DNA of 62,524 nucleotides, taken from assembly GCA_018058095.1 (NCBI GenBank), contig JAGPCO010000031.1:1-62524 (forward strand). Reading direction: 5' to 3'. Shown one piece after another: positions 10,060 to 30,244 of this stretch; position 1 is the first letter of the stretch, and each line of letters starts with the position of its first letter. The translations under genes and the position numbers were made by a program. The stretch comes from Kofleriaceae bacterium. Lineage in GTDB: Bacteria > Myxococcota_A > Polyangia > Haliangiales > Haliangiaceae. The notes below the pieces were generated by a model that had not been told where the DNA came from, did not search any database, and worked only from the letters and a program-made list of their open reading frames with translations.

Positions 10060-10451
10060 CCCAGCCGGGTCTTGCGGTGGGGGCGACCGGCAGGGTGTCT
10101 CGCATCCTCTACGCCGGCCTCGGCCTCTCGTGCGTGGGGCTCGGGGTCGTCGGCGCGTTCCTGCCGGTGCTGCCGACCACGCCCTTCTTGCTGGTCGCGC
10201 TGTGGGCGTTCTCGCGCAGCTCGCGCCGCCTCGAGCGCTGGCTGCTCGAACACCGCCGGTTTGGGCCGCGCCTGGTCGCCTGGCGCGACCACCGCGCCAT
10301 CCCGCTGCCGGTGAAGCTGACCGCGTGGGGCTCCATGTCGGCGAGCCTGACCCTGATGATCGTCCTCGGCGTCAACCGCTGGGCCGTGCTGGCCGCGGTG
10401 GTGCTGATGGCGACCGGCGCCATCTACGTCGCCCGCTGCCCGTCGCGCTAG
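10056..10451 (+). CDS. YbaN/DUF454 inner-membrane protein
   Basis: This 131-residue protein contains the DUF454 signature: GLGVVGAFLPVLPTTPFLL (about 29-47) followed by ALWAFSRSSRRLERWLLEH and two further hydrophobic helices at the C-terminus. YbaN proteins are small inner-membrane proteins of unknown function, sometimes found near respiratory or heme genes, which fits the cytochrome gene directly upstream. GTG 10056 overlaps the cytochrome stop; GTG 10095, after a non-conserved leader, is an alternative. The TAG stop (10449-10451) is formed by the first bases of a palindromic intergenic repeat. Confidence 0.82.
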   Translation: MTQPGLAVGATGRVSRILYAGLGLSCVGLGVVGAFLPVLPTTPFLLVALWAFSRSSRRLERWLLEHRRFGPRLVAWRDHRAIPLPVKLTAWGSMSASLTLMIVLGVNRWAVLAAVVLMATGAIYVARCPSR

Positions 10452-10493
10452 CAGGCCGGCGGCTCCTGCCGACGGGACGGGCGTGCCTGCTAG
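10448..10493. repeat. Palindromic intergenic repeat, short copy
   Basis: The element begins CTAGCAGG (10448-10455) and ends CCTGCTAG (10486-10493), a perfect inverted repeat. The core CCGGCGGCTCCTGCCGACGG matches the cores at 20665-20778 and 30127-30244. It sits between two convergent genes and supplies both their TAG stop codons. A bidirectional terminator role is inferred. Confidence 0.75.
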
Positions 10494-10975
10494 CTGGCGA
10501 TGCAGAAGCGGAACACGACCTCGTCGGCCATCCCGCCGGCCGGGGTCGCCTCGATCGTGATCTCCCACAGGCCGGGCATCCACAAGTTGATCATCGACAC
10601 GGCGTAGCTGCCCGGGGCGGCGCCCGGGGCGATGACCGGGGCGATCGAGGTACCGTGGCGGTGATCGGGCATGAACGGCGTGACGTCGATCGACGCACCG
10701 GAGATGGGCGCGCCGGCGCCGTCGAACACCTCGAGGTTGAACGTGTTGTCACCACGCTGAGGTGGCGCCGGCACGGCCGAGGTGATGCGGATGCGCACCC
10801 CACCCGCGCCGGTCTTCTCCAGGCCGGCGACGAACGTGTCGTCGCGGTCCTCGATCGAGCAATCGTAGCCGGCGTCGGCGAAGTGGGCGTGGCCGTCGTC
10901 GCTGCAGCCCACGCCAGCGACGAGCGACGCCGCAGCCAGCGCGAGACCGACGCGGGCGAGACAGACGCGGGTCAC
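10490..10975 (-). CDS. Lipoprotein, possible FixH/YtkA-like domain
   Basis: The 161-residue product has a signal peptide (VTRVCLARVGLALAAASL) and lipobox VAGVGC. The mature region is a single beta-sandwich-like domain: GLEKTGAGGVRIRI, NTFNLEVFDGAGAPISGA, then HGTSIAPVIAPGAAPGSY and LWMPGLWEITIEA. This pattern resembles FixH/YtkA-like domains, seen in periplasmic proteins linked to copper or cytochrome oxidase handling, but no copper-ligand set is obvious. GTG 10975 is preferred because it gives a normal lipoprotein leader and TACTGT (10980-10985) lies just upstream; GTG 11035 would add 20 residues. The TAG stop is inside the palindromic repeat shared with the convergent gene. Confidence 0.7.
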   Translation of the reverse strand: MTRVCLARVGLALAAASLVAGVGCSDDGHAHFADAGYDCSIEDRDDTFVAGLEKTGAGGVRIRITSAVPAPPQRGDNTFNLEVFDGAGAPISGASIDVTPFMPDHRHGTSIAPVIAPGAAPGSYAVSMINLWMPGLWEITIEATPAGGMADEVVFRFCIAS

Positions 10976-11066
10976 GGCGACAGTACGCACGGGCAAGGTC
11001 GAGGTTACGCCGCGGCGGCCGCGAAGGCGAGCCACGAAACGGACCGCGCCCGCCGGCGAGCCGGCC

Positions 11067-11768
11067 TCACCGCCCGGCCGGGCCGGCCGGGCTGACCAGG
11101 ACCGGGGTCTGCTTGCCGAGCCCGACCCCGGACGGCACGCCGACGTACCCGACCCGGAGGATCGCCGCGTCGTGGCCCGGCACCTGCCAGGCGCCGTCGA
11201 TGCGGACCCGCGGGCGCAGGTAGGTGGTGACCACCGCCCGCCCGGACGCCAGCGAACCCTCGGCGGCGATGCTCAGCTCGAGCGCGAACTTGCGGACCGG
11301 TGGGCGCTCGGCGCCGAGCTGGACGGCGCGGTGCATGAGGACCCGGGTGGTCAAGACCCAGGGTGCCAGGCCGATCGGCGCCAGCGGGGTCAGCGTGGGC
11401 GCCAGCGCCGCCAGGCGGTGCCGCGCCGCATCGGGATCGACCGCGTCGTACCAGCTGGCCATCGGCACCAGGACGCCGCGACACGGCCCGGTCAGCTGCA
11501 TGCGGTGCACGAGCGGCGCCCCGACGTCACCCAGCTCCTCGACGAAGTACACGCAGCGTGCCCGCGGGTCGAGCCCGAGCGGCTCGAGGCGGTGACCCGG
11601 CTGTCCCCCCACCGCCGTGGCGACGGCGTCATCGGCCACGCTCACGGTGGAGGTCAGGTACGACATGGTGTCGCGCGCCAGCTCGCGCGACGACCGGGCG
11701 GCGCGGTGGGCGCGCACGGTGCGGGCGACCAGCGGCGGAGGCTCGGGCTTGAGGTTGCGGCGCGACAC
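11067..11768 (-). CDS. Hypothetical protein
   Basis: The frame encodes about 233 residues from GTG 11768, with GTG 11717 and ATG 11666 as alternative starts. I recognise no family. The protein is cytoplasmic-looking, with no signal peptide or membrane segment. It contains YFVEELGDVGAPL, PMASWYDAVDPDAARHRL and a closing stretch of short strands ending in TPVLVSPAGPAGR. The 3' two thirds shows coding-type composition while the region upstream of 11768 is low complexity, so the start is the weak point. The intergenic region upstream holds a GGGCAC hexamer repeat. It faces the 10490-10975 gene in tandem. Confidence 0.5.
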   Translation of the reverse strand: MSRRNLKPEPPPLVARTVRAHRAARSSRELARDTMSYLTSTVSVADDAVATAVGGQPGHRLEPLGLDPRARCVYFVEELGDVGAPLVHRMQLTGPCRGVLVPMASWYDAVDPDAARHRLAALAPTLTPLAPIGLAPWVLTTRVLMHRAVQLGAERPPVRKFALELSIAAEGSLASGRAVVTTYLRPRVRIDGAWQVPGHDAAILRVGYVGVPSGVGLGKQTPVLVSPAGPAGR

Positions 11769-11922
11769 GGTGCTCGTGGATGAGAACGCGTGGGCCGGGC
11801 AAAGGTTGCACCTCCGTGGCGAAGCCCACAGCCGGGCCGCGCCGGGCGCCCGACGGGAATATTCATCGCCCCCCGTCGGTTTCGGGCCGCGACGAGCCGG
11901 CCCCCGTCGAGACAGCGAGGTG

Positions 11923-11946
11923 GGGCACGGGCAAGGGCACGGGCAC
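11923..11946. repeat. GGGCAC hexanucleotide repeat
   Basis: Four near-identical hexamers (GGGCAC, one variant GGGCAA) lie in the gap between the 11067 and 11994 genes. The same hexamer type, on the other strand, recurs inside the last gene of the window. Confidence 0.6.
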
Positions 11947-11960
11947 GGGAGCAGGCGCTG

Positions 11961-11982
11961 CAAACGCGGTGCGCCGCGTTTG
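11961..11982 (-). terminator. Hairpin downstream of the YwqK-repeat gene
   Basis: CAAACGCGG and CCGCGTTTG form a perfect 9-bp stem around a TGCG loop, 11 bases past the stop at 11994 on the minus strand. There is no T-tract, so it may act with Rho or only as an mRNA end protector. Confidence 0.45.
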
Positions 11983-11993
11983 TCACCGTCCAG

Positions 11994-13634
11994 CTAGGGC
12001 CAGTACTCGTCGACCGCCAGCTCGGCGCCGTCCGGCCGGTAGCGGATCCAGCGCCCGACGCGGCGCCCAGCCGCGAACTGGCCGCGGGTGATGACCCGGC
12101 CCGACCGATCGTAGGCCAGCCAGGCGCCGTCGAGCTGGCCGTCCCGCCAGTGCTCCTCCACCGCGACGCCCGGCGGGGCCGAGGCCCCCGCGGCCGGCTC
12201 GGCCAGCACCTGGCCGGGGTAACAGCGCCACCACACCCCGCTGCGGCGATCACCGGCGTAGCGCCCGATGACCGCCAGGCTGCCGTCGGGGTGGCGCTCG
12301 CGGTACGCGCCGTCGCGCGCGCCGTCTGCATAACCCGCGGACACGACGTCGATCGCACCGGCCGTCCGCACCAGCACCCCGTCACGTCGGTCGTGCTGGT
12401 AGCTGGCGCGCTGTCGGATGGAGCCGTCGGCGTGAAACCAGGTCCAGGTCCCGGCGCGCTGGTCGTCCTGGTGGCGACCGCTCAGCGCGGTGCGCCCGCG
12501 CGGGAACAATTCGGTGACGGCGCCGTCGCGTCGACCGGCGCGCCAGGTGATCCGGGCGGCCACGGTGCCGGTGCGCGGGTGGTACTGCACCTCCACGCCG
12601 GTCCCGCCCTGCATCCGGAACGATGGCAGGGCTGCCCCACTCGGGCTCCACTGCGACACCTCGCCGTCGAGCTTCCCGGCGTGGTAGGTGCCGAGCCAGG
12701 TCCGCACCCCGGCGCTGGCCTCGGTCCACGTGCCGACCCGGACGCCGGCGCGGTAGGTCCCGGTCCGCTCGACCGCCCCGTCCCGGTCCCACCAGGTCCA
12801 GACGCCATCGCGCTCGCCGTGGAGGTAGCTGCCGTGCTCGCGCCGCTGCCGGGGCGTGCGCCAGCTGGTGTAGCTCCCGTGCCGGAGCCCGCGGCCATCA
12901 CGCTGCTCCTCCACCACCCGCGCGCCCTGGCGCCAGGTCACCTGGGGTCCGACCGGGACGCCGGCGCGCCAGCGCTCCTCGCGCGCGAGCCGGGTCCGCG
13001 TCCCGATCAGGCGTGGTCCGGTCCGGACCCCGTCGACCCACGCCTCGCGCACGACCTCGACCCCACCGACGTCGCGCACGACCGACTCCCCGTCGGGCCG
13101 ACCGGCGCGCAGCGGCGAGATCCGCGCCGGGCTCCCATCGGGCCAGAACGTCCGCATCACGCCGGTGCCAGCGGCGAATGGCTCGGTCGCCCACAGCTGC
13201 CCGTTCGGGCCCAGGTGCACCACCTCGCCGTCGAGCTGACCGGCCCGGTAGGTCGCGCGCAGGCGCACCGCCCCGCCGGGGTACAGCTCGACGTACTCGC
13301 CGTCGAGCTGGCCGTTTCGGCGCTGCCCGCGCACGCGGACGTCACCGTCGGGGTACACGGCGATGAACGGACCGTCGGCCACGCCGGCGCCGTCCTGGCA
13401 CTCCAGGCGCCGCAGCGGCGCGGTGGCCCACACCACGCGGCGCCCGGGCCCACACACCAGCGGACGGGCCGGGGCGGCCGGGCCCGACCTGGCCTCGGCC
13501 GGCCCGATCGTCGCATCGAGCGCGAGCCGGCCAGGCCCGGGTGGTGCGGCCTCTCCGCCCGCGCGCGGCGGCGCCTTCGGTTGCCGGCACGCCGCCAGCA
13601 CCAGCGCCGTGACCATGACCGGGCGCGCCTGCAC
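11994..13634 (-). CDS. YwqK/MORN-like repeat lipoprotein
   Basis: The 546-residue product begins with a short leader and lipobox LAAC followed by a Pro/Ala/Gly linker. The rest is built of about twenty repeats of roughly 22 residues in the pattern DGxxxxxYPDGxxxxxGxYxxGxxxG, for example GPFIAVYPDGDVRVRG and GEYVELYPGGAVRLRA. Such repeats form beta-hairpins and are annotated as YwqK-type antitoxin or MORN-like repeats; 'antitoxin' is a family name only and no toxin gene is next to it. GTG 13634 is preferred because CATGAT lies 6 bases upstream and it adds an Arg to the leader; ATG 13616 is an alternative. Divergent from the DUF3996 gene. Confidence 0.8.
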   Translation of the reverse strand: MQARPVMVTALVLAACRQPKAPPRAGGEAAPPGPGRLALDATIGPAEARSGPAAPARPLVCGPGRRVVWATAPLRRLECQDGAGVADGPFIAVYPDGDVRVRGQRRNGQLDGEYVELYPGGAVRLRATYRAGQLDGEVVHLGPNGQLWATEPFAAGTGVMRTFWPDGSPARISPLRAGRPDGESVVRDVGGVEVVREAWVDGVRTGPRLIGTRTRLAREERWRAGVPVGPQVTWRQGARVVEEQRDGRGLRHGSYTSWRTPRQRREHGSYLHGERDGVWTWWDRDGAVERTGTYRAGVRVGTWTEASAGVRTWLGTYHAGKLDGEVSQWSPSGAALPSFRMQGGTGVEVQYHPRTGTVAARITWRAGRRDGAVTELFPRGRTALSGRHQDDQRAGTWTWFHADGSIRQRASYQHDRRDGVLVRTAGAIDVVSAGYADGARDGAYRERHPDGSLAVIGRYAGDRRSGVWWRCYPGQVLAEPAAGASAPPGVAVEEHWRDGQLDGAWLAYDRSGRVITRGQFAAGRRVGRWIRYRPDGAELAVDEYWP

Positions 13635-13640
13635 CGATCG

Positions 13641-13646
13641 ATCATG
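13641..13646 (-). promoter_or_regulatory. -10-like hexamer, possible leaderless promoter
   Basis: On the minus strand CATGAT ends 6 bases before GTG 13634. The first base departs from TAnnnT. Confidence 0.35.
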
Positions 13647-13715
13647 CCACGCAGGGCCCGTCGGCGACGAGCTCGTGGCGGAGGCCGGCGCGGAGGCAGC
13701 CGACGAGTCCGGTGG

Positions 13716-13721
13716 TATGGT
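13716..13721 (+). promoter_or_regulatory. -10-like hexamer, possible leaderless promoter
   Basis: TATGGT ends 6 bases before ATG 13728; no ribosome site is present between. Confidence 0.5.
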
Positions 13722-13727
13722 CCGGCC

Positions 13728-14270
13728 ATGAACGCTCGATCCCTCGGTCTCGGCCTCCTCGTGCTCGCGTGTGTCGCCACCAGCGCGCCGAGCCCCGCCG
13801 ACGCCCGCCCGCGCCCGGCCGGTCGCACCAGCCGGTTCCAGGCCAACAAGACCTTCGGTCTCGGCATCATGCTGGGCGCCCCGTCGGGCCTGTCCGGCAA
13901 GTACTTCCTGTCGGCGTCCAACGCCCTCGACTTCGGCGTCGGCGCGATGCGCTACTACCGCGGGCGAGACGGCCTGCACCTGCACCTGGACTACCTGTGG
14001 CACCCGCTGTCGCTGGCGTCGGCCCGGCCGTTCGAGCTTCCGTTGTACTTCGGCCTGGGCGGCCGGGTGTTCGACTTCGACGACGACAACGACTTCAACG
14101 GCACCGCCCTCGGCCTGCGCGCGCCGATCGGCATCGCCTTCGACTTCAACAACGTGCCGCTCGACATCTTCTTCGAGCTGGCCATGGTGATCGACTTCTT
14201 CATCGACTACACCGACGATGTCGACGTCGACCTCAACGGCGCGATCGGCCTGCGCTACTACTTCAACTGA
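13728..14270 (+). CDS. DUF3996-type outer-membrane beta-barrel
   Basis: The 180-residue protein has a cleavable signal peptide (MNARSLGLGLLVLACVATSA, then processing near ADA) and a mature part of alternating strands. The block FGLGIMLGAPSGLSGKYFLS, then ALDFGVGAMRY, HLHLDYLWH, LPLYFGLGGRV and the terminal GAIGLRYYFN match the DUF3996 family of small outer-membrane barrels. The C-terminal aromatic residue before Asn is typical of barrel insertion signals. The ATG has TATGGT 6 bases upstream and no ribosome-binding site. It is divergent from the YwqK-repeat lipoprotein. Function beyond an outer-membrane barrel is unknown. Confidence 0.82.
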   Translation: MNARSLGLGLLVLACVATSAPSPADARPRPAGRTSRFQANKTFGLGIMLGAPSGLSGKYFLSASNALDFGVGAMRYYRGRDGLHLHLDYLWHPLSLASARPFELPLYFGLGGRVFDFDDDNDFNGTALGLRAPIGIAFDFNNVPLDIFFELAMVIDFFIDYTDDVDVDLNGAIGLRYYFN

Positions 14271-14292
14271 CCGGGGCGGCAGGGGCCACACC

Positions 14293-15279
14293 ATGCAGGT
14301 CGAGGCCATCGTGTTCACCGGGCCGGGTGGCCCCGAGGTCATCACCGTCGGCACCACGCCGCTGCGCCGGCCTGGCCCTGGCGAGGTCGTGGTCGAGGTC
14401 GTCGCCGCCGGCCTCAACCGGGCCGACGTCCTGCAGCGGCGTGGCCTGTACCCCGCGCCGACCGGCACCGTGGCCGACGTGCCCGGGCTCGAGCTGTCGG
14501 GCCGGGTCGCCGAGCGGGGGCCGGGGGCCCAGCTGTTCGCGGTGGGCGCCGAGGTCATGGCGGTCGTCGCCGGTGGCGCCATGGCGCGACAGATCGTCGT
14601 GCACGAACGCGAGCTCATGCCGGTGCCGCACGGCGTCGACCTGATCGAGGCCGCGGCCATCCCCGAGGCCTTCCTGACCGCCTGGGACGCCCTCGGCCAG
14701 GCCGACCTGCGTGCCGGTGAGGTCGTCCTGATCCACGCCGCCGCCAGCGGGGTCGGCTGCGCCGCCCTGCAGCTGGCGGCCGCCCTCGGCGCCGACGCGC
14801 TGGCGACCAGCCGGCACGCGGCCAAGCTGGACCGCCTGACCCAGCTCGGGCTGCGGCACCGGCCCATCGTCGTCACCGAGGCGCGCTTCGCGGCCGAGGT
14901 GTCGGCGCTCACCGGGGGCGCCGGCGCGGCGGTCATCCTCGACTGCGTCGGCGCGGCCTACCTCGAGGAGAACGTACGAGCGCTGGCCCGAGGCGGTCGC
15001 ATGGTCCTCATCGGCACGCTGGGCGGCGGGACCGGGTCCTTGCCGCTCACCATGCTGCTCGGCAAGCGCGCGACGTTGATCGGGACCGTGCTGCGCAGCC
15101 GTCCCCTCGAGGAGAAGATCACCCTGGCCCGCGCCGGCGCGCAGCGCCTGGTGCCGATGTTCGAGCGCGGGCTCCTGCGCCCCATCATCGATCAGGTGTT
15201 GCCGATGACCGACCTGGCCGCCGCCCACGCCCGGATGGAGGCCGACGCCAACGTCGGCAAGCTGGTCCTGCGCTGGTGA
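14293..15279 (+). CDS. NAD(P)H:quinone oxidoreductase, zinc-independent MDR family
   Basis: This 328-residue protein is a medium-chain dehydrogenase/reductase of the PIG3/quinone oxidoreductase type. It has the GroES-like half with GLNRADVLQRRGLYP (about residues 38-52) and PGLELSGRV, and lacks the zinc ligands of alcohol dehydrogenases. The Rossmann half carries the cofactor motif AAASGVGCAALQLA (about 153-166) and the typical end VLPMTDLAAAHARMEADANVGKLVL. It should reduce quinones or enones with NADPH in the cytosol. ATG 14293 follows AGGGGCC, a modest ribosome site, and lies 22 bases after the barrel gene, so the two could be co-transcribed although functionally unrelated. Confidence 0.9.
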   Translation: MQVEAIVFTGPGGPEVITVGTTPLRRPGPGEVVVEVVAAGLNRADVLQRRGLYPAPTGTVADVPGLELSGRVAERGPGAQLFAVGAEVMAVVAGGAMARQIVVHERELMPVPHGVDLIEAAAIPEAFLTAWDALGQADLRAGEVVLIHAAASGVGCAALQLAAALGADALATSRHAAKLDRLTQLGLRHRPIVVTEARFAAEVSALTGGAGAAVILDCVGAAYLEENVRALARGGRMVLIGTLGGGTGSLPLTMLLGKRATLIGTVLRSRPLEEKITLARAGAQRLVPMFERGLLRPIIDQVLPMTDLAAAHARMEADANVGKLVLRW

Positions 15280-15302
15280 CGCCCCGGCCGTGGCCGGCCG
15301 GG

Positions 15303-16406
15303 TCAGCGGACGGTGATCGCCAGCGTCGAGGCGGCGCTCGCGCCGGGCCACGGCGCGGCGCTGACGGCGGCGCGCGCGCAGCGGACCGCGGCCGCGGCCA
15401 GCGCCGCGCCGGTCGCGGTCGTCCCGCTCAGCGCCGCCACCGTGCCGTCGGCGCGAACGTTGATCACCAGCGTCACCGGCGCTGGCGCGAGGGCACATCG
15501 GCCCAGGCTCGCCTGCAGCCGGACCAGCGTGGCCTGCGCCGCCGCCGCATCGAGCGGTCCGGACCGAACCTGACTGGTGAGGCGCGCGAGGGTTGGCCGC
15601 CTCTTGCCCTTGGCCGGCTCCTCCTTGGCAGCGGACATGGACGAACCGGCGCCCGTCGCCGCGACCGCCTCGGTCTTGCCATCGCCCTTGCCGGCGTCGT
15701 CGTCCTTGTCGGCGCCGGTGACCGGCCGCGCGCGCTCGAGGACGCCACCGCCGCCAGCCCCTCCACCCTGCCCCGCGCCGGCCACGACCTCGGGCTGCAC
15801 CAGATCCGGCGATGGCGTGGTGGTCGTCGTCGGGCCGCCACGGCCCGGGCCAGCGCGGCCGGTGGGCTCAGAGGGCTTCCGCTCCTCCGTGGCGAGGTCC
15901 GGGGCGGTCGGGGTGACCATGGCGCGTGGGCGCGTGGACGAGGCCACGGCCGCACCCGCGGCGGCGGCCTCGTCGCGCGCGGACGCGCTGGTGTCGGCCG
16001 CCTCGCGCTCGACGTGGCGACCGGCCGGTGCGCTGACGACGTCGGCGCCGGCCGCCACCGCGGCGGCCCGTGGCGCGCGCCACGCCAGCGACTCGCCGAC
16101 GACGCGGCGCTGACCCGGCCCGACCTGCCAGGTGACCTGGTTGTGCCAGAGCACCACGGCGATGTGCCCGTCGGCGCCGGTGCGCACCTCGTCGTCACCG
16201 CTGATCGGCTCACCGACCCGGACCGGACGCTCCTGCCCGGCCCGGACCACCCGGACCGAGCCGGTCACGGCCTCGACCTGGCCGACCGGCTGCCCGGCGA
16301 CCACCGCCGGCCCGGACCGGGGGGCGTCCCCGCAGGCGGCCGCGCCGCTCGCCAGCAGGACGGCGGCGCACAAGGTCACGGCCAACGTCGGCAACGGAGT
16401 AGCCAC
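15303..16406 (-). CDS. FecR-domain lipoprotein with AgmX-like C-terminus
   Basis: The 367-residue product has a signal peptide ending in a GAAAC lipobox. A FecR-type domain follows (about 45-110), recognised by VTGSVRVVRAGQERPVRVGE, DDEVRTGADGHIAVVL and a Trp-rich strand. A long Ala/Pro/Thr/Gly-rich linker (about 110-290) leads to a compact C-terminal region with LASLGRCALAPAPVTLVINV-like spacing, one Cys pair and a repeated VRADGTV element; it resembles the AgmX/PglI C-terminal domain of myxobacterial gliding-associated proteins. It is probably an envelope scaffold or peptidoglycan-contacting lipoprotein. GTG 16406 is supported by TATGAT 6 bases upstream. Convergent with the quinone oxidoreductase gene. 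Confidence 0.75.
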   Translation of the reverse strand: MATPLPTLAVTLCAAVLLASGAAACGDAPRSGPAVVAGQPVGQVEAVTGSVRVVRAGQERPVRVGEPISGDDEVRTGADGHIAVVLWHNQVTWQVGPGQRRVVGESLAWRAPRAAAVAAGADVVSAPAGRHVEREAADTSASARDEAAAAGAAVASSTRPRAMVTPTAPDLATEERKPSEPTGRAGPGRGGPTTTTTPSPDLVQPEVVAGAGQGGGAGGGGVLERARPVTGADKDDDAGKGDGKTEAVAATGAGSSMSAAKEEPAKGKRRPTLARLTSQVRSGPLDAAAAQATLVRLQASLGRCALAPAPVTLVINVRADGTVAALSGTTATGAALAAAAVRCARAAVSAAPWPGASAASTLAITVR

Positions 16407-16412
16407 GAGGCG

Positions 16413-16418
16413 ATCATA
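16413..16418 (-). promoter_or_regulatory. -10 hexamer, possible leaderless promoter
   Basis: On the minus strand TATGAT, five of six matches to TATAAT, ends 6 bases before GTG 16406. One of the clearest examples in the window. Confidence 0.55.
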
Positions 16419-16568
16419 CGCATGATCCGGCGGTCTGGCCTGTCGACACGCCCCCGGTGGCCACCGGGCCGGGGTGCGGCGCCGCACCCGGGCCACCCGA
16501 GACGTGTGGTCGACGAGCTGTGACCACTGGCCAGCCAGGCCGGCCCTCCCTCCCGGGCCAGGGCCTGG

Positions 16569-16574
16569 TACCAC
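16569..16574 (+). promoter_or_regulatory. -10-like hexamer, weak
   Basis: TACCAC ends 6 bases before ATG 16581. The last base departs from TAnnnT. Confidence 0.3.
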
Positions 16575-16580
16575 CAGGAC

Positions 16581-17276
16581 ATGCGCAGCGCGATCCTCGT
16601 GGTCCTGGTCATGGTCGCCACCGGCTGCCGTGGCCCGCGGGCACCCCGCCCGACCACCGGGGCGATCATGGGCCTGGTCCGTGACCGCGCCAGCGGGGAT
16701 CCCATCGCCATGGCCCGGCTGCAGGTCCGGCGCGACGGCCAGGTCGACGGCGGTGCCGGCACGCGGTCGAGCGAGGACGGGCTGTACGACCTCGATCGGC
16801 TGACGCCCGGGCGATACACCCTGACCGCGCACTTCGCCGGCGAGATCGTCGAGGTCCGCGCGATCGACGTCAGCGCTGGGCGAGCCCTGCCGGTCGACGT
16901 GGTGTTCGAGCTCGGGCGTGGTCGCCCCCTCATCCTCGACTACGGCAACCCGGCCGACGGGGCGATCGACGGCTACCCGCTGGCCGCCGGCCGAGCCGGG
17001 CGCATCGAGGGCACCGTGTCGGACGCCGCCACTCGCGAGCGCGTGATCGGGGCCGTGGTCAGCGCCGACCAGGGCCACGGCGGGGAGGTCCGTCAGATCA
17101 TCACCGATGACCAGGGTCGCTTCCTGTTCGACGAGCTGGCCGACGGCCGCTACACGGTGAGCGCGTACTACACCATCGCCGGCCGCGGCCACATCGAGGT
17201 CCAGCGCAACTCGCTCGAGGTCCAGGCCGGGCGCGCGCTGGTCGTGCCGCTGTGGATCGAGCTGGTCGGTCAGTAG
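16581..17276 (+). CDS. Carboxypeptidase-regulatory-like domain lipoprotein
   Basis: The 231-residue product has a short signal peptide with lipobox VATGC and then two copies of a CarboxypepD_reg/Cna-B-like beta-sandwich. Copy one spans about residues 28-105 (AIMGLVRDRASGDPIAMARL, then DGLYDLDRLTPGRYTLTA). Copy two spans about 140-225 (RIEGTVSDAATRERVIGAVV, then DQGRFLFDELADGRYTVSAY). Such domains are stable protein- or sugar-contact modules with no catalytic activity. It is divergent from the FecR lipoprotein gene, so both may be expressed from the same 174-base gap. The much larger 30359-33211 gene uses the same fold many times. Confidence 0.8.
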   Translation: MRSAILVVLVMVATGCRGPRAPRPTTGAIMGLVRDRASGDPIAMARLQVRRDGQVDGGAGTRSSEDGLYDLDRLTPGRYTLTAHFAGEIVEVRAIDVSAGRALPVDVVFELGRGRPLILDYGNPADGAIDGYPLAAGRAGRIEGTVSDAATRERVIGAVVSADQGHGGEVRQIITDDQGRFLFDELADGRYTVSAYYTIAGRGHIEVQRNSLEVQAGRALVVPLWIELVGQ

Positions 17277-17312
17277 GCGCGCGCCCATCGGCACGCCCGG
17301 CCGCGGGCTGGC

Positions 17313-20121: not shown

Positions 20122-20667
20122 ATGGACACCGTCTACTGGATCGGGCTCGGGCTGGGCGGCACGCTGCTGGCGGCGTCGCTGGCGCTCGGCGGCAAGGATG
20201 GCGACGGGATCGACAAGGGCGGCGTCGACAAGAGCCTCGACAGCGGTGGCCTCGGCGCCGCCGCGCCGGTCGGATCGCTCCGGTTCTGGACCTTCTTCCT
20301 CGCCTTCGGCGGCCTCATCGGCGTGCTGCTGGGATGGCTGGGTCGCCCGGCCGCACCGGCGGCGGTCGCGGCCATCGCCGGCGCGACCGGCTGGACGTGC
20401 GGCGTCGCCGCGGTCCACCTCATCCGCTCGCTCAGCCGGCACTCGGCCGACAGCACCACCGCCAGCTACGAGCTGGTCGGGTCGACCGGCCAGCTGCTGC
20501 TCGGCGTCGGCAAGGACGCGCCCGGCAAGCTGCGCCTGTCGGCCAAGGGCCGGATCCAGGACTTCGTGGTCGAGACCGAGGATGACGAGCCGATCCCGGC
20601 CGGGGCCAGCGCGATGGTCGTCGCCCCGGCCGCCGATGGCCGGCTGGTCGTCACCAAGCCGGTGTAG
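20122..20667 (+). CDS. NfeD-like membrane protein
   Basis: The 181-residue product has an N-terminal membrane helix (YWIGLGLGGTLLAASLAL), an acidic loop (GKDGDGIDKGGVDK), two further helices (about 53-100) and a C-terminal OB-fold-like beta domain (about 120-181). The domain begins ELVGSTGQLLLGV and includes ETEDDEPIPAGASAMVVA. This topology is typical of short NfeD-like proteins, which partner flotillins in membrane microdomains. The two flotillin genes immediately downstream support the call. An AGGAG ribosome site precedes ATG 20122. The TAG stop (20665-20667) is the first part of a palindromic repeat. Confidence 0.72.
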   Translation: MDTVYWIGLGLGGTLLAASLALGGKDGDGIDKGGVDKSLDSGGLGAAAPVGSLRFWTFFLAFGGLIGVLLGWLGRPAAPAAVAAIAGATGWTCGVAAVHLIRSLSRHSADSTTASYELVGSTGQLLLGVGKDAPGKLRLSAKGRIQDFVVETEDDEPIPAGASAMVVAPAADGRLVVTKPV

Positions 20668-20778
20668 CCAGCAGCGGGCCCCGCGCCGGCGGCCTGTTCC
20701 GACGCAACGGGCTCCGGGTTCTCAGCGGCCTGCGAGATCGAAGATGCCTGGCAGGCTGCTGCTTCAGCAGCCTGCTAG
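20665..20778. repeat. Palindromic intergenic repeat, long copy
   Basis: A 114-base element aligned along its length with 30127-30244. It ends in a hairpin: CTGGCAGGCTGCT (20748-20760), loop GCTTC, AGCAGCCTGCTAG (20766-20778), 12 of 13 pairs. It lies between the NfeD-like gene and the first flotillin gene, and its first bases form the NfeD stop codon. Confidence 0.8.
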
Positions 20779-23688: not shown

Positions 23689-23694
23689 TAGCAT
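23689..23694 (+). promoter_or_regulatory. -10 hexamer, possible leaderless promoter
   Basis: TAGCAT ends 7 bases before ATG 23702 and overlaps a competing ATG at 23693, which argues for 23702 as the true start. Confidence 0.45.
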
Positions 23695-23701
23695 GGTGGC
23701 G

Positions 23702-25936
23702 ATGCCCCGCGCCCCGTCGCTCGTTCGCCCACTGCTGGGCGCCATCGGCCCCGCCGCGGTGCTGGCCCTGACGGCGTGCGGCGCCGCCGGCCCGCTCCGC
23801 CACGTCGACGCCGGCGACGCCGCGCTGGCGGCCGGCAGGCTCGAGCAGGCCGAGCGCGCCTACGCCCGGGCCCTGGCCGGCGAGCCCGACCTCGACGAAC
23901 CCGAACACGACGCGTGGGTGGTGGCCAAGGTCGAGCGCGGCCGGGCCGCCATCGAGCTGGCCCGCCTGCGCCAGTCCGCGCCGTGGCGCAACCTCAAGGG
24001 CACCCCGGACCAGCTCCTGACCGAGCTCCACACCCTGCACGATCGGGTGCGCGGCATCGGTGGCGACGCCGCGATCGAGGCGGCGCTGGTCGAGGCCATG
24101 AACGGCCTGGCCAGCGCGACCCTGGCCGCGCTGCCGACGCAGGACTTGCCGGCCCGGGCCAGGTACGTGCTGGCAAGCGCGCTGCGCCGCTTCCCGCAGC
24201 TGACCGAGGCGACGCTGACGCCGATCGCCGGGCTCCACGGCGAGGCGATCCGGGTCCATCAGGCGGCGCTCGATGGTGCCGGCGCGGCGCCGCTGGTGGC
24301 GCGGGTGCACGAGGCCTTGCTGGCCGGCCTGCGCGGAGCGCCCCTGCCGGCCGCGCCGGGGCTGGCCGCGCCGTACGCACGTGGGGTGACGGTGACCGTG
24401 ACCGGGGCGGCTTGCCCGGGCGCGACCGCCGCGGTCAGCGGGCTCGGCCGGGCCGGGGCCGAGCGGACCATCGCCGTCACCGTCGAGGTCGCGACCTGCG
24501 CCGACACCACCCAGACCACCCGCGATCAGCGCGAGGTGAGCTGGAACGAGCAGGAGCTGGTCCGGGTCGAGCTCACGCCGATCCAGCAGCAGGTGTGCCG
24601 CGACACCTACACCGAGGTGCGCGAGTGCTTCGGCGACCCGCTGACCTGCTACTCGGGCACGTTCGTGCGGACCGGCGTGTCGTGCACGACGGTCGAGGTC
24701 GGCGTGGCCGAGAAGCCGATCTACCGGACGGTGGAGCGCAGCGGGGTCCGGCCGATCGAGCGTCAGGCCGGCCGCTACGAGGTGGCCGCCACCTGGGTCG
24801 CGCGCCGCGGCGACCGCGAGTGGCGCGGCGAGCTGCGCCGCGGCGCCGACGCGTCCGGGGTGCGGGGCGACGCGTTCGGCGTGGTGCCAGCGTTCAGCGA
24901 GGACTGGTCGTCGGGGGCCGCCTTCTTCGCCGACGCCGGCGCCGCGCTGGCGCGCGACGTCGGCGCCAGGCTGGAGGAGGCGTTCGCGGCCGACGTGTCC
25001 GCCGCGGCCGCCAGCGCGCGCCAGCTCGAGGCCAGCGGTGACGTGCTGGCCGCCGACCAGGCGTGGGCGACGGCGGCCCTGCTCGGCGGCCAGCCGGCCG
25101 GGCGATGGCCGAGCTGGGGCGTCGACGCCGCCAGCATCGTCGCCGCGTTCGACCCGGTCGCGCCGACCGCGGTGGCGCCGCTGGCCCTGGCCGAGGCGCG
25201 CAGCGTGACCGTGCCGGCGCGGCCACGCCTCACCGCCGGCCAGCTGCGCGCCGCCGAGGCCCGCCTGGTCCCCACCCTCGGCGCGACCCTGTGGGTCGAT
25301 CTGCACGCCGGCCTGCACCAGGTGCCGGTGGTGATGGACCCCGCGTCGCCGCAGCAGCTGGCCGGGGTCGACTCGCTGCTGCTCGGGTTCCGCGCCGGCC
25401 ACCGCGGCCTCAGCAGCTACCGGCGCGCCACCAGCGGGGTCGGCTTCGTCGACGATCTGGCGGCCGAGATCGCGGCCGGCTTCGTGCTCGACCAGCCGGA
25501 CACGGCGATCGGCACCAGCACGTTCGCCATGGGCGCCAGCTACAGCGCCGGCCTGGGCTTCCGCCGCATCGGCACGCTGGGGCTGTTCGGCGGGGCCCGC
25601 GCCGGCGCCAGCTGGATGCGCTTCGGCAGCAACAGCGGCGCCGCCGCCTCGGTCACCCCGTTCGCCCGGCTCGAGCTGTGGCTGGGCCGCATCACCGTGG
25701 TCGCCGACGGCATGACCTCGACCGTGGCCGGCGACCACCACGACGCGCTGGCGCTGTACCTCGGCCGCATCCGCCGGGATGGTCCGGGCGAGAAGCTCGG
25801 TCGCTTCCTGTCGGTGCGGCTCGAGCGGCGCGCGCTCGACACCACCCTCGACCTGACCGATCAGATCGACGGCGAGGTGACGCGAGCCGACGTCGAGACG
25901 ACGATGGTGACCGCGGCCTGGGGCTTCGGGTTCTGA
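23702..25936 (+). CDS. Large lipoprotein with helical and barrel-like parts
   Basis: This 744-residue product of no named family has a signal peptide with lipobox LTAC. Residues about 20-210 are Ala/Leu-rich helices with a TPR-like element (GDAALAAGRLEQAERAYARAL). The middle (about 225-350) has beta strands and five cysteines, including VCRDTYTEVRECFGDPLTCY and the closing SCTTVEV. The C-terminal 180 residues alternate polar and hydrophobic residues (FAMGASYSAGLGFRRIGTLG, GARAGASWMRFG) and end in Phe, like an outer-membrane barrel. It may be an outer-membrane-associated assembly protein; this is inference. ATG 23693 is a less likely start. Confidence 0.7.
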   Translation: MPRAPSLVRPLLGAIGPAAVLALTACGAAGPLRHVDAGDAALAAGRLEQAERAYARALAGEPDLDEPEHDAWVVAKVERGRAAIELARLRQSAPWRNLKGTPDQLLTELHTLHDRVRGIGGDAAIEAALVEAMNGLASATLAALPTQDLPARARYVLASALRRFPQLTEATLTPIAGLHGEAIRVHQAALDGAGAAPLVARVHEALLAGLRGAPLPAAPGLAAPYARGVTVTVTGAACPGATAAVSGLGRAGAERTIAVTVEVATCADTTQTTRDQREVSWNEQELVRVELTPIQQQVCRDTYTEVRECFGDPLTCYSGTFVRTGVSCTTVEVGVAEKPIYRTVERSGVRPIERQAGRYEVAATWVARRGDREWRGELRRGADASGVRGDAFGVVPAFSEDWSSGAAFFADAGAALARDVGARLEEAFAADVSAAAASARQLEASGDVLAADQAWATAALLGGQPAGRWPSWGVDAASIVAAFDPVAPTAVAPLALAEARSVTVPARPRLTAGQLRAAEARLVPTLGATLWVDLHAGLHQVPVVMDPASPQQLAGVDSLLLGFRAGHRGLSSYRRATSGVGFVDDLAAEIAAGFVLDQPDTAIGTSTFAMGASYSAGLGFRRIGTLGLFGGARAGASWMRFGSNSGAAASVTPFARLELWLGRITVVADGMTSTVAGDHHDALALYLGRIRRDGPGEKLGRFLSVRLERRALDTTLDLTDQIDGEVTRADVETTMVTAAWGFGF

Positions 25937-25945
25937 CCGCCGCGC

Positions 25946-26674
25946 TCACCGCATCAGGCGCACGCCGAGGCCGGCCTCGACCAGGCCGCGGGCGCGCAGA
26001 TCGCCGTCCAGGGTGACGCCAACGCGCAGCGGCTCGGCGTCGAGGGCCAACCACGACGTGACCGCCAGCGACAGCGCGGCCGGCGACCACACCAGCGAGG
26101 TGTCGCGCTCGTCGCCGTTTGCGCCGACGCCGAGGCTGACCACCACCTCGGGCAGCCAGGCCCCGACGACCGAGCCCAGTCGCCAGCGCGAGTCGATCGC
26201 GTTGCGCAGCACCGACCGCGCCGCGATGCGCAGGCCGCCGTCGGCCCAGGCGGCGACGCTGAGCTCGGCCCCGCGCTCGTTGCCGAGCCACGCGCCGGGC
26301 GCCACACGCCCGACCGCCAGCCCGCACGCCACCGGCGCGCACAGCACGCGCGGGCGCCGGCCGGCGGCGTCGTTGCGGTCGGCCCCGCGCAGGGGCCGCA
26401 ACCGGGTGAAGGTCAGGCGCCCACCGACGGCCCAGCTGCGGTCGCGGTAGCTCGACCCGACCGCGAGCGCCGACAGCTCGAGCCGCGGCCGCGGCAGCCT
26501 CCGGCCGGGCGCCAGCCAGACCGGAGGACGATCGGGCCGGACCGTGGTGCACGGCCCACCCGGGGCACAACACGTGTAGCTGCCGTCATCGGCGATGGCC
26601 GAGCAGGTGGCGCTGGCGACGCGGGCCGCGCCGATCGTGGCGACGGCGACCAGCAACGAGAGCAGGGGCCGCAT
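25946..26674 (-). CDS. Secreted protein, unknown function
   Basis: The 242-residue product has a clear cleavable signal peptide (MRPLLSLLVAVATIGAARVA, cleavage near ASA). A Cys-containing N-terminus follows (TCSAIADDGSYTCCAPGGPC), then a region of amphipathic strands (SWAVGGRLTFTRLRP, AELSVAAWADGGLRIAARSV, RVGVTLDGDLRARGLVEAGL) ending GVRLMR. The alternating pattern suggests an outer-membrane barrel-like protein. I recognise no family. It is convergent with the preceding lipoprotein gene with only nine bases between stop codons. No ribosome site or -10 box is obvious before ATG 26674. Confidence 0.65.
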   Translation of the reverse strand: MRPLLSLLVAVATIGAARVASATCSAIADDGSYTCCAPGGPCTTVRPDRPPVWLAPGRRLPRPRLELSALAVGSSYRDRSWAVGGRLTFTRLRPLRGADRNDAAGRRPRVLCAPVACGLAVGRVAPGAWLGNERGAELSVAAWADGGLRIAARSVLRNAIDSRWRLGSVVGAWLPEVVVSLGVGANGDERDTSLVWSPAALSLAVTSWLALDAEPLRVGVTLDGDLRARGLVEAGLGVRLMR

Positions 26675-26703
26675 GGCGGGAGAACGCGGGCGGACGATCC
26701 GGC

Positions 26704-27672
26704 TTACACCGCGCCGGCGCCCGGGGCAGGTACGACGACGGTCAGCGCGCGCGGCACCAGCTCGAACCGGGCCGGCAGGTGGCCGACGTTCTCGCCGTCG
26801 AGATCGAGCTCGACGACGGCGCCCGGATCGATCGGCTCGGCTGCCACCACCCGGGCGCGCCGGCTGGTGACCTTGTCCATGCCGAGGTGAGTGCCGGCGT
26901 AGATGCGACGGCCGGAGGCCAGGAGATCGCCGAAGCCGAAGTCGCCCAGCGCCACCACGTCGAACTGGCCGTCGTCGAGCTCGGCGTTGGGGGCGACGAA
27001 CATGCCGCCGCCGAAGTAGCGCCCGTTGGCGACGGCCACGGTGTTGATCGTCAGGTCGAGCGCGTCGGCCTCGGCCCGGCTGTCGTCGAAGCGCAGGCGG
27101 ACCCGCTGGTTGGAGTAGCGCCAGGTCGCGCGGGCGGTGGCCATGAAGAAGGACAGGCGCCCACCCAGCTTCTTGCTCGACTGGTTGACCAGCTGATCGA
27201 CCAGGCCGGAGATGCCGAACGAGCAGATGTTGACGAACATCCGGGTCGCCTCGGCGCCGGCCGGGGTGGTGTAGGTGAGTCGGCCGACGTCGATGACCCG
27301 GGTGTGACCGGCCGCGAGCACGTCGGCCGCCGCCGCCACCTCGCGCGGCATGGCGATGGTCCGGCGGAAGTCGCCGCCGGTGCCAAACGGCAGGATGCCC
27401 AGCCGCGCCGTCGGGGCGATCGGCTGTCCATCGACGAAGAAGCCGTTGGCGACCTCGTTGATGGTGCCGTCACCGCCGAGGGCGACGACCTGCTCGGCGC
27501 CGGCCTCGAGCGCGGCACGCGCCAGCCTGGTGGCGTCGCCCGGCGCCTCGGTCCGGACCTCCTCGAACGGCAGCCGGCGCCGCACCACCTCGGCCAGCTC
27601 GGGCCACTTGCGGCCGGTGGCCCCGCCCTGGGCCCGCGGGTTGACGATGACGACGGTGCGCGGCGCGGACAT
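26704..27672 (-). CDS. Diacylglycerol/sphingosine-type lipid kinase
   Basis: The 322-residue product is a DAGK-catalytic family protein of the YegS/LCB5 type. Landmarks are VVIVNPRAQGG (7-17), the nucleotide-binding GGDGTINEV (66-74), PFGTGGDFRRTI and the C-terminal substrate domain with FGGGMFVAPNAELDDGQFDV. It should phosphorylate a lipid alcohol such as diacylglycerol at the membrane surface using ATP. The usual third motif is GTGNDF/L; here Asn is replaced by Gly (GTGGDF), a common variant. TATACT lies 8 bases before ATG 27672 with no ribosome site. It is divergent from the adenine methyltransferase gene. Confidence 0.9.
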   Translation of the reverse strand: MSAPRTVVIVNPRAQGGATGRKWPELAEVVRRRLPFEEVRTEAPGDATRLARAALEAGAEQVVALGGDGTINEVANGFFVDGQPIAPTARLGILPFGTGGDFRRTIAMPREVAAAADVLAAGHTRVIDVGRLTYTTPAGAEATRMFVNICSFGISGLVDQLVNQSSKKLGGRLSFFMATARATWRYSNQRVRLRFDDSRAEADALDLTINTVAVANGRYFGGGMFVAPNAELDDGQFDVVALGDFGFGDLLASGRRIYAGTHLGMDKVTSRRARVVAAEPIDPGAVVELDLDGENVGHLPARFELVPRALTVVVPAPGAGAV

Positions 27673-27680
27673 CGGCGCCG

Positions 27681-27686
27681 AGTATA
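27681..27686 (-). promoter_or_regulatory. -10 hexamer, possible leaderless promoter
   Basis: On the minus strand TATACT ends 8 bases before ATG 27672, within the short AT-richer patch of this divergent gap. Confidence 0.5.
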
Positions 27687-27785
27687 TCCGTCGTGGTCGA
27701 GCCGGCCGCGGGCGGCCGGCACAAAGCGAGGTCGCGACCGGACCGACCTGCCGCCCGGCGGCTTGTGCGAGGGTGGCGCTGGCCC

Positions 27786-27791
27786 GATCAT
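27786..27791 (+). promoter_or_regulatory. -10-like hexamer, weak
   Basis: GATCAT ends 6 bases before GTG 27798. The first base departs from TAnnnT, but the spacing is exactly that of the stronger examples. Confidence 0.3.
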
Positions 27792-27797
27792 GACCGG

Positions 27798-29417
27798 GTG
27801 CTGGCCGCCGACCTCGACGTGTTGTGCCGCGAGCTGGCCGCGGCGCCGCCACCGAGCGCGGTGAGCGCGGCGGCCCGGCGTGGCCAGGGCGTGGTGTTCA
27901 CCCCGGCGCCGCTGGCCCGGTACGTGGCGGCCCAGGTGCTGGCGCCCCTGCGCGGGCGCGGGCGCCCCCTCGTCGTGCTCGACCCGGCCGCCGGGGATGG
28001 CGCGCTGCTGGCGGCGGCGGCGGCCGAGCTCGGTCCGGGTCACCACCTCATCGGCCTCGAGCGGGACCCGGCCCTGGCCGCCGCGCTGCGCGCTCGCGTC
28101 CCGACCGCCGAGGTCCACGTGTGCGAGGCCCTGCTCGCGGCGCCGCCGCTGCCGCCGGTCGACGCCGTGCTCGGCAACCCGCCGTACGTGCGATCGATCC
28201 GGCTGCGCGCGGCCGATCCGGCGCTGTGGCAGGCGGTGCGTGGCGCGTTCGCCGCCACCCGCCACGGCGAGTGGGATCTGTACGCCGCCTTCCTCGAGCG
28301 AGCGCCGGCCTGGCTGGCGCCGGGAGGCCGGTTCGGGCTCATCGTGCCGTCGCGCTGGATGACGGCGCGCACCGCGGCCGGCCTGCGCCAGCACCTGGCC
28401 GAGGCCGGGGTGGTGCGCGCCATCCTCGACTTCGGACCGACCCAGATCTTCGCCGCCGCCACCACCTACGCCGCCGTGGTGATCGGCGAGCGCGGCGCGG
28501 CGCCGCCACCGACGATCGCGGTACGTCGGCACGATGGGGTGCGCTGGCACGCGGTCACCATCGAGCGCGCGTGCTGGGGCGCGGCGCCGTGGCTGGCCGC
28601 GGTCGGCGACGCCACCCTGGTCACCCGCTGGGCCGGGCGTGGCCCGACGCTGGGAGAGGTCGCGCGCATCGCCAAGGGCGCCGGCAGCAACGCCGATCCG
28701 GTATTCGTCCTCGACGACGCGACCGTCGAGGGCGCGCTGGTGCGGGGCCGATCCGGCGGCGAGGTCGTCGAGGTCGAGGCGGCGTTGACCTGGCCGCTGC
28801 GACGCGGTCGCGACGTGGTGGCCTGGGCCGCCCCGGTCGGGGCGGCCGAGCCGCGCGCGCTGTTGCCGTACGCGCCTCCGTATCGGACCGGGGACCTGGT
28901 GCCGTGGCCGACGCTGGCGCGCGACTTCCCGCGGGCGGCGGCGCACCTCGACCGGCACCGCGCCCGCCTGGCCGGGCGCGAGCGCGGCCGCTTCGCCGGG
29001 GCGTGCGCCCACGCCTGGGGCCGGCCGCAGAACCTGGGCTTCCTGCTCGACCGGGCGCCCAAGCTCATCGTGCCCGACGTGCTGGCGACGGCGCGAGCCG
29101 AGCTCGACCTCGACGGCCGCCTGGTGCTCGACTCGGCCTACGCGGTGCGGCCACGCCCGGGCGGCCCGATCCCGATCGAGGTGCTGCTGGCGCTGCTCAA
29201 CGCGCCGGTGGTGCGGACCTGGCTCGACCACCACAGCGTGCCGCTGCGCGGCGGCTTCACCCGGCTCAAGACCGCGGCGCTGGCGCCGATGCCGGTGCCC
29301 GCGCCCGGTCCGTGGATCGAGCGGGTCCGGCGCGCCGTCGTCGGCGGCGACCACGCCGCCGCGGTGGCGGCGATCGGCGCGGCCTACGCCGTGGCCCCCG
29401 GGGCGCGGACCGCGTAG
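27798..29417 (+). CDS. N6-adenine DNA methyltransferase, orphan
   Basis: The 539-residue product has the gamma-class methyltransferase core. A Phe-Thr-Pro motif X (GVVFTPAPLARYVA) precedes motif I (LDPAAGDGALL, about 61-71) and the catalytic motif IV GNPPYV (about 126-131), followed by LAPGGRFGLIVPSRWM. The C-terminal half (about 280-530) looks like a TaqI-type specificity domain, with EVLLALLNAPVVRTWLDHHS near the end. It should methylate adenine in a specific DNA site. No restriction endonuclease gene is adjacent, so it is either an orphan epigenetic enzyme or a degenerate type IIG enzyme lacking its nuclease. GTG 27798 is chosen over longer, low-complexity frames. Confidence 0.85.
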   Translation: MLAADLDVLCRELAAAPPPSAVSAAARRGQGVVFTPAPLARYVAAQVLAPLRGRGRPLVVLDPAAGDGALLAAAAAELGPGHHLIGLERDPALAAALRARVPTAEVHVCEALLAAPPLPPVDAVLGNPPYVRSIRLRAADPALWQAVRGAFAATRHGEWDLYAAFLERAPAWLAPGGRFGLIVPSRWMTARTAAGLRQHLAEAGVVRAILDFGPTQIFAAATTYAAVVIGERGAAPPPTIAVRRHDGVRWHAVTIERACWGAAPWLAAVGDATLVTRWAGRGPTLGEVARIAKGAGSNADPVFVLDDATVEGALVRGRSGGEVVEVEAALTWPLRRGRDVVAWAAPVGAAEPRALLPYAPPYRTGDLVPWPTLARDFPRAAAHLDRHRARLAGRERGRFAGACAHAWGRPQNLGFLLDRAPKLIVPDVLATARAELDLDGRLVLDSAYAVRPRPGGPIPIEVLLALLNAPVVRTWLDHHSVPLRGGFTRLKTAALAPMPVPAPGPWIERVRRAVVGGDHAAAVAAIGAAYAVAPGARTA

Positions 29418-29449
29418 CGCGATCCACCCCGGATCGGCCCGGGCCGGGT

Positions 29450-29455
29450 GATACT
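29450..29455 (+). promoter_or_regulatory. -10 hexamer with TG extension, possible leaderless promoter
   Basis: GATACT, preceded by GGT, ends 6 bases before ATG 29462 with only GGGCCC between. Confidence 0.5.
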
Positions 29456-29461
29456 GGGCCC

Positions 29462-30130
29462 ATGCTCGGCCTGGTCATCTCCATCGCCGTCGTCGCCATC
29501 GCGATCGGCGCCGCCCAGTGGTGGAACAGCGAGCACCAGACGACGAAGCGGACCCTGCGCACCAGCCCGCGCATCACCGTCTCGGCGATGGCGCACGCGG
29601 CTCAGCCCGGGCGCCTGGTCGGCGTGGCCGAGGTGGTCGACGGCACCTTGACCAGCCCGGTCACCGGCCGGCCGTGTGTGTTCTACCAGGCGACGATCGA
29701 GGAGCTGGTCTCGACCGGCAAGTCGAGCCAGTGGCGACAGCGCGCGCACGAGCGCCGCGGCGTGGTGTTCGCGCTGCGCGACGAAACCGGCCGGGCCCTC
29801 GTCGACGCCGCCACCGCCCGCATCGCGCTCACCATCGATGGCCGCTCGCAGTCAGGCGTGTTCGACGACGCGACCGCGGCCGAGCAGGCGTTCCTGGCCC
29901 GCCATGGCATGTCGAGCAGCGGCTGGTTCCTCAACAAGCGGCTGCGCTACCACGAGGCCGTGATCGAGCCGGGCGAGCGGATCGCGGTCCTCGGCCGCGG
30001 CGAGGCCGAGCCCGACCCGGACGGCGCCACCGGCGGCGGCTACCGCGAGGGGCCGGCGCTGCGGGTGGTGATCACCGGGACGGCCAAGGCCCCCGTGCTG
30101 TTGAGCGATCACCCGGACGCGCTGCGCTAG
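29462..30130 (+). CDS. GIDE-domain membrane protein
   Basis: The 222-residue product has one N-terminal membrane helix (MLGLVISIAVVAIAIGAAQ) and a soluble domain resembling the GIDE domain of the mitochondrial ubiquitin ligase MUL1 and its prokaryotic relatives. Matching features are PGRLVGVAEVVDGTLTSPVT, CVFYQATIEE, the DETGRALVDAATARI strand, HEAVIEPGERIAVLG and a final VVITG strand with an LLSDHP-like motif typical of the domain end. There is no RING finger, as expected in bacteria. The bacterial role is unknown. The TAG stop (30128-30130) is part of a palindromic repeat. Confidence 0.72.
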   Translation: MLGLVISIAVVAIAIGAAQWWNSEHQTTKRTLRTSPRITVSAMAHAAQPGRLVGVAEVVDGTLTSPVTGRPCVFYQATIEELVSTGKSSQWRQRAHERRGVVFALRDETGRALVDAATARIALTIDGRSQSGVFDDATAAEQAFLARHGMSSSGWFLNKRLRYHEAVIEPGERIAVLGRGEAEPDPDGATGGGYREGPALRVVITGTAKAPVLLSDHPDALR

Positions 30131-30244
30131 CAGGCTGCTGAAAAACCGGTGCCGGCGGCTCCGGCCGACGGGACGGGCTCCGTGTTTTCAGCAGGCTGCG
30201 AGATCGAAAATGCCTAGCAGGATGCTTCTTCAGCATCCTGCTAG
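30127..30244. repeat. Palindromic intergenic repeat, best-preserved copy
   Basis: The element opens CTAGCAGGCTGCTGAAAAAC and closes with a perfect hairpin: CTAGCAGGATGCT (30214-30226), loop TCTTC, AGCATCCTGCTAG (30232-30244). A second internal pairing joins GCTGAAAA near the start with TTTTCAGC at about 30186. It supplies the stop codon of the GIDE-domain gene. No transposase is associated. Confidence 0.85.

Follow-up and report, generated by a model that had tools for sequence, protein, structure and literature searches.

Along a 62,524-nt contig of a Kofleriaceae bacterium (JAGPCO010000031.1 of assembly GCA_018058095.1; hereafter the window), copies of a palindromic intergenic repeat contain the stop codons of the genes next to them. 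This raises the question of what the repeat is and how it came to lie at gene ends with such precision. An earlier note on the window had offered two answers: selection of the element at 3′ ends for terminating transcription in both directions or stabilizing mRNA, or insertion at CTAG stop codons. Our analysis favours the latter. The repeat is very likely a non-autonomous MITE of the IS5 family at CTAG, and the depletion of CTAG from coding sequence would have led copies to stop codons, which its duplication would rebuild.

Copies of the repeat in the window

The three copies described earlier, one short, one degenerate and one intact, were confirmed in the sequence. They span 46-118 bp and hold no gene. 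Together with the genes ending in or beside them, and with one doubtful site, they are as follows:

10095..10451, + strand: gene that stops in the short form's left CTAG (TAG 10449-10451; gene call)
10448..10493, no strand assigned: short 46-bp form, CTAGCAGG + 26-base core + CCTGCTAG
10490..10975, - strand: convergent gene that stops in the short form's right CTAG (gene call)
20122..20667, + strand: gene with a TAG stop (20665-20667) adjoining the degenerate copy (gene call)
20665..20778, + strand: 118-bp MITE in degenerate form, with TAGCCAGCAG as its left end (nhmmer)
29462..30130, + strand: gene stopping at TAG 30128-30130, inside the left CTAG of the intact copy (gene call)
30127..30244, + strand: intact 118-bp IS5-type MITE copy, its ends matching complete IS5-family elements; CTAG 30127-30130, left inverted repeat CAGGCTGCTGAAAAA 30131-30145, core, right inverted repeat 30226-30240, CTAG 30241-30244
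30214..30244, + strand: terminal hairpin unit of the intact copy, CTAGCAGGATGCT-TCTTC-AGCATCCTGCTAG, itself bounded by CTAG
49982..49989, - strand: doubtful remnant, CCTGCTAG at the end of the gene at 49986-50735 (-), missed by the family model

As had been noted, the convergent genes at the short form both end in the repeat, with TAG at 10449-10451 on the forward strand and the other stop at 10490 on the reverse strand. In some relatives, the homologue of the gene at 10490..10975 (-) stops no more than a few codons away from this position. The core-to-CTAG junction of this form has one other genome match without mismatch, at the 3′ end of a RAYT-type element (C189). The degenerate copy aligns with positions 20-118 of the nhmmer model (68.5 bits). 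Both long copies had been credited with 13-bp hairpins and 5-base loops; this is true of the 30127 copy (13 perfect pairs, 5-base loop), whereas in the 20665 copy 14 pairs enclose a loop of 3 bases. Solo relatives of the terminal hairpin unit are rare (n = 2 in the 1.22-Mb sample defined below). The proposed fourth member, a remnant at 49964-49989, did not reach E = 1 in the family-model search and has little in common with the family beyond CTAGCAGG; the gene call there does end in CTAG.

Two further CTAG elements in the window lie at stop codons and were absent from the earlier description:

11938..11997, - strand: terminal part of a ‘family 2’ element, made up of CTAG, an inverted repeat and CCCGTG repeats (45.5 bits); the gene at 11994-13436 (-) stops in this CTAG (11994-11997)
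37974..38245, - strand: remnant, with an internal deletion, of a ~1.35-kb RAYT/TIRYT-like element; the gene at 36975-37979 (+) stops in the CTAG of this remnant (37976-37979)

Ends and flanking bases match IS5-family elements

Complete IS5-family DDE elements have ends that match those of the repeat, CTAG followed by CAGGCTGCTGAAAAAC. A search of viral contigs with CTAGCAGGNTGCTGAAAAA yielded a 1.33-kb element (L344), CTAG-flanked on either side, whose two ends point inward. It encodes a 377-aa transposase of the IS5 family (NF033581, 291 bits against a cut-off of 140; Pfam DUF772 and DDE_Tnp_1), and its end agrees with the left end of the 118-bp unit at 19 of 20 bases. A second element (L345) has the same ends and a protein 64.5% identical to that of the first. 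Overall, the ends of the unit are identical to those of three IS5-family elements at 18-19 of 20 bases, as would be seen in a MITE, and CAGGNTGCTGAA represents the end sequence of this IS5-type lineage. The unit is, in addition, short, non-coding and multi-copy, like other MITEs.

Plasmid elements annotated as IS5 family or ISAzs10 have CAGGNNGCNGAAAAA ends and, in three of four cases, TTAG/TTAG or CTAA/CTAA flanks. The flanking four bases across IS5-family elements thus vary as YTAR (CTAG, TTAG, CTAA), and since they vary among full elements, the tetranucleotide is the target and not part of the element. CTAG is found on both sides of 11 of the 21 good 118-bp copies, with mostly one-base variants of this repeated tetranucleotide in the rest, and the second CTAG would represent a target duplication. 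At C67:50105 and C93:65977, the junction to the gene reads G-TAGCAGG, not C-TAGCAGG, so that the first target base is not fixed.

The genome itself contains two CTAG-to-CTAG elements (C21, 873 bp; C159, 608 bp) whose ends are related to those of the MITE and which hold C-terminal remnants of an IS5-type transposase (56% identity over 136 aa; DDE_Tnp_1, 48 bits; NF033581, E = 6e-27, below its cut-off). In about 1.5 Mb (20%) of the genome, only decayed copies and no intact IS5-type transposase were found. We infer that an IS5-type transposase moved the 118-bp units.

The element end at 11938-11997 is of the same lineage as elements holding the decayed IS5-family transposase. Family 2 elements (window 11938-11997; C204:78878-79028; C110:32935) carry (CCCGTG)n between inverted ends, with an array of varying length. 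In another family of the class (L325, ~4860-4960), a CTAG-flanked CAGTCGCCC palindrome sits within a longer CTAG-flanked repeat, apparently through nested insertion at CTAG.

Abundance and spread of the repeat

For counts, we used the window and ten further contigs, namely 1.216 Mb of the 7.57-Mb draft genome. A profile search found 29 copies of the 118-bp repeat in these 1.22 Mb, far beyond the sites in the window, and scaling gives a genome total of roughly 140-180 in 7.57 Mb. The 30127 copy and its near-full relatives were listed at 41 places with 93-100% identity (40 of 224 first-look candidates were scored), dozens of the relatives elsewhere in the draft genome being 93-98% identical to it. 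The 16-base end CTAGCAGGNTGCTGAA, with two mismatches or fewer, occurs 412 times in the genome, compared to 5 for a reversed-pattern control; the exact 16 bases are also present in other families of the same class that have different interiors. The 118-bp repeat has no match in 15 same-genus genomes. Such near-identity among copies, in a genus whose other genomes lack them, speaks for a recent burst of transposition and not for a long-kept function. At 30261-30329 in the window lies a GTCGTGGTCGTCGACCTAGACGGCGAC-type repeat with numerous matches across same-genus genomes, arranged as inverted pairs ~130-300 bp apart.

CTAG scarcity and stop codon usage

A simple codon-usage gene finder called 942 genes in the 1.22 Mb (89% coding, 73.9% GC), with TGA as the stop codon in 684, TAG in 233 and TAA in 25. 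CTAG is strongly depleted in this sample (242 observed versus 821-1141 expected): 36 occurrences fall in coding sequence (1.08 Mb of genes), 65 at stops and 141 in other noncoding DNA. TTAG, CTAA and TTAA are nearly missing from genes. Because CTAG is so scarce in coding sequence, an element that targets it meets mostly spacers and stops.

The claim that every copy supplies a stop codon is valid within the window but not genome-wide, where the terminal TAG is the exact stop in 15 of the 29 sampled copies. Genes ending inside a copy stop at its terminal TAG in 15 of 17 cases (p = 4e-6 versus an expected 1/3). Furthermore, the 29 copies occupy 15 convergent, 12 tandem and 2 divergent gaps, while spacer bases predict 14% convergent, 53% tandem and 33% divergent (p = 2e-6 for the convergent excess). 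Exact stop use by the copies (15/29, 52%) is about twice that of plain noncoding CTAG sites (36/126, 29%; p = 0.007), which means that some further preference or selection remains. Thus, CTAG choice alone does not account for all of the stop association.

Some kind of CTAG-flanked element lies within 10 bp of 31 of the 65 CTAG-ending genes and of 20 of the 877 others, a contrast that is partly built in since the elements themselves begin with CTAG. By eye, about 7 more ‘plain’ CTAG stops look like remnants, giving a range of 31-38 of 65.

Ancestral stop positions

In two conserved genes whose stop now lies in an element, the last residue is at the same place as in relatives, namely the sigma-factor gene (10 of 10 relatives) and Lon (8 of 9); the stop at this place is a CTAG with no element in some of the relatives (L254, L263). 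Certain further genes have tails too variable to be informative, and some C-termini differ: a histidine kinase of this genome is 10-17 residues longer than those of relatives, an 83-aa protein is 2-11 residues shorter and an HD-GYP protein 1-6 shorter. As the C-terminal lengths of these other genes vary, sequence comparison would place some insertions, but not demonstrably every one, at an ancestral stop. No clean empty site was found in orthologous same-genus regions, synteny being broken at both window sites tested. Insertion at CTAG stop codons, as proposed earlier, is supported by the IS5-type ends with their YTAR/CTAG target, the scarcity of CTAG and the two conserved stop positions.

A proposed route to the stop codons

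The repeat could have reached its present sites as follows. An IS5-type DDE transposase would have recognized the inverted repeat CAGG(N)TGCTGAA(A)AA and put copies into CTAG, duplicating those four bases (the target consensus of the family is YTAR). With CTAG nearly gone from the coding sequence of a 74% GC genome, and left mainly in spacers and (C)TAG stops, insertions would land beside or exactly on stops, where the duplicated CTAG would rebuild the stop and leave the gene unharmed. Loss of promoter-side (divergent) insertions would strengthen the 3′-end bias further. Selection probably has a role in the placement, which is explained at least largely by target choice and the loss of harmful insertions.

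Other explanations

The same placement could reflect function: selection would retain the element at gene ends for terminating transcription in both directions or stabilizing the 3′ part of mRNA, a role that it could have in addition to a MITE origin. Its hairpins are strong on both strands (z -5.5 and -6.4), and the excess in convergent gaps over their 14% share of spacer bases, the presence of 2 copies only in divergent gaps and the excess over plain CTAG sites are all in keeping with such a role. As for intrinsic termination, the GC-rich hairpin is present and a terminator-like site is found, but its tail, CATTTTCGAT, is a weak T tract on a single strand. Moreover, near-identical copies that no other genome of the genus shares point to a recent burst, and target choice combined with selection against promoter and operon insertions yields the same pattern. 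We consider a maintained function of this kind unlikely, and the data do not show the selection for it that was suggested earlier; target choice and counter-selection may explain the placement.

A different mobilizer would be the RAYT/TIRYT-like element of this genome. It is ~1.35 kb long and encodes a 266-273-aa HUH tyrosine transposase of the RAYT/TIRYT type, with 58 genome matches, of which ~18 are near full length without stops and many are at contig ends. PF01797 matches the protein above cut-off and NF047646 below it, and conserved HLH and Y motifs agree with an HUH enzyme using a single Tyr. A fold search with a 41% identical homologue placed IS200/RAYT folds (IS200/IS608 transposases, RAYT 4er8) at the top of the PDB list, which supports a fold of this type; comparison of the RAYT profile to PDB by sequence gave a weak match (E 0.24, ISDra2). 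Nearly all copies with ends read CTAG-GAGTCCGACCCCGTA...TACGGGGTCGGACTC-CTAG or, in another rendering, CTAG-GAGTCCGACCCC...GGGGTCGGACTC-CTAG, and some have the core of the 118-bp repeat or of family 2 in place of their own 3′ end. CTAG ends were not seen in the RAYT groups of relatives. This high-copy element with GGGGTCGGACTC ends is found in the window at 37974-38245 and elsewhere at L061-L070 and L180-L198.

On this basis, the repeats could be REP/TIR-type units moved by the HUH transposase, itself spread between CTAG sites. Its copy number, its CTAG boundaries, the swapped 3′ ends and the IS200/IS608-like fold of the homologue speak for such a link. However, its inverted repeats are unlike those of the 118-bp unit, whose ends are of the IS5 type; same-genus genomes with related RAYTs lack the 118-bp repeat; and the unit has CTAG at both ends in place of the REP tag GTAG. 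We consider this origin improbable. RAYT-mobilized REPs were initially the main reading, which was dropped once the 16-base end was seen in other families and then recognized as that of IS5-family elements. In REPs and REPINs, GTAG or GTRG lies at the foot of a 20-40 bp hairpin and the same repeat flanks the cognate RAYT gene; here, the RAYT-type element ends in GAGTCCGACCCCGTA and is linked to the 118-bp unit through occasional chimeras or adjacency only. The label ‘REP-like’ thus describes the behaviour of the repeat but not its CTAG tags or its 118-bp length, and a RAYT-type gene, suggested earlier as something to look for, does exist in the genome, with different ends.

A further account, random insertion near 3′ ends with the TAG of the element giving a new stop and a C-terminal truncation or extension, fits the C-termini that lie several residues off those of relatives but is hard to reconcile with a terminal TAG in frame far more often than the expected 1/3 or with the ancestral last residue retained by the sigma factor and Lon, and is equally improbable.

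CTAG as a shared junction

A third repeat, of 103 bp with TCCCCTGGAAACG ends, was found at C93:19664-19771, C157:32504-32611, L079 and L180. It is CTAG-flanked in 4/4 cases, and often a single CTAG links it to the RAYT-type element or to the MITE. Since its four sites continue differently after the right CTAG, into the MITE, family 2, the RAYT-type element or unique DNA, CTAG is their common junction. The RAYT-type element, being CTAG-flanked as well and sharing junctions and some chimeric 3′ ends with the repeats, is a possible second mobilizer.

Discussion

The non-autonomous IS5-family MITE proposed here shares its inverted repeat and YTAR-type target with IS5-family elements having CAGGNNGCNGAAAAA ends (ISAzs10 group, transpos_IS5_4), and its own genome holds decayed relatives of their transposase; it differs in that the window copies are gene-less. 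MITEPsy1 of Pseudomonas syringae is described as a 100-nt MITE related to an IS5-type element, inserting after CTAG or YTAA; the parts of that report concerned with the element give 6 copies in its genome, compared to ~140-180 here, and mention no stop-codon association (PMC3189936). IS5 of E. coli duplicates Py-T-A-Pu, most often CTAG, an under-represented tetranucleotide, but its ends differ from those of the MITE, and it is autonomous and has been studied as a gene activator (PMC5493358). A literature search for stop-codon-targeting IS5 MITEs gave nothing specific.

GTAG REPs are palindromic, extragenic and downstream of genes, and their terminal TAG is often the stop of flanking genes (PMC3733652, PMC2817692). 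They are 20-40 bp long with GTAG at one end, and their cognate RAYT is flanked by the same repeat (PMC3733652, PMC2817692), whereas the 118-bp unit has CTAG at both ends and these ends are of the IS5 type. Stop codons supplied by repeat ends have thus been noted before for GTAG REPs; what stands out here is their density and the shared CTAG. The RAYT-like element, in turn, has the long flanking inverted repeats of TIRYT/TIRtron elements (PMC3733652; subclass 2.1, PMC6006769). Its inverted repeat is GGGGTCGG, compared to the TIRYT consensus GGGGWSAS, and it is high-copy, CTAG-flanked and not the source of the 118-bp ends. Class-2 RAYT genes are described as low-copy (PMC6006769, PMC2817692), which makes a CTAG-flanked, high-copy RAYT-type element a testable oddity.

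Tentatively, and with considerable doubt, one may ask whether an IS5-type DDE lineage and a RAYT/TIRYT-type HUH element present in high copy number, two unrelated transposition systems, have each come to use CTAG; mobile elements would then occupy about half of the CTAG amber stops, and stop codons would be a refuge common to both. Occupation at this level is dense. The 118-bp repeat offers a simple cause for stop-supplying repeats, i.e. a transposon target that contains TAG and that genome composition has removed from coding sequence. The same target-composition logic may extend to GTAG REPs, whose TAG has been reported as the stop of flanking genes.
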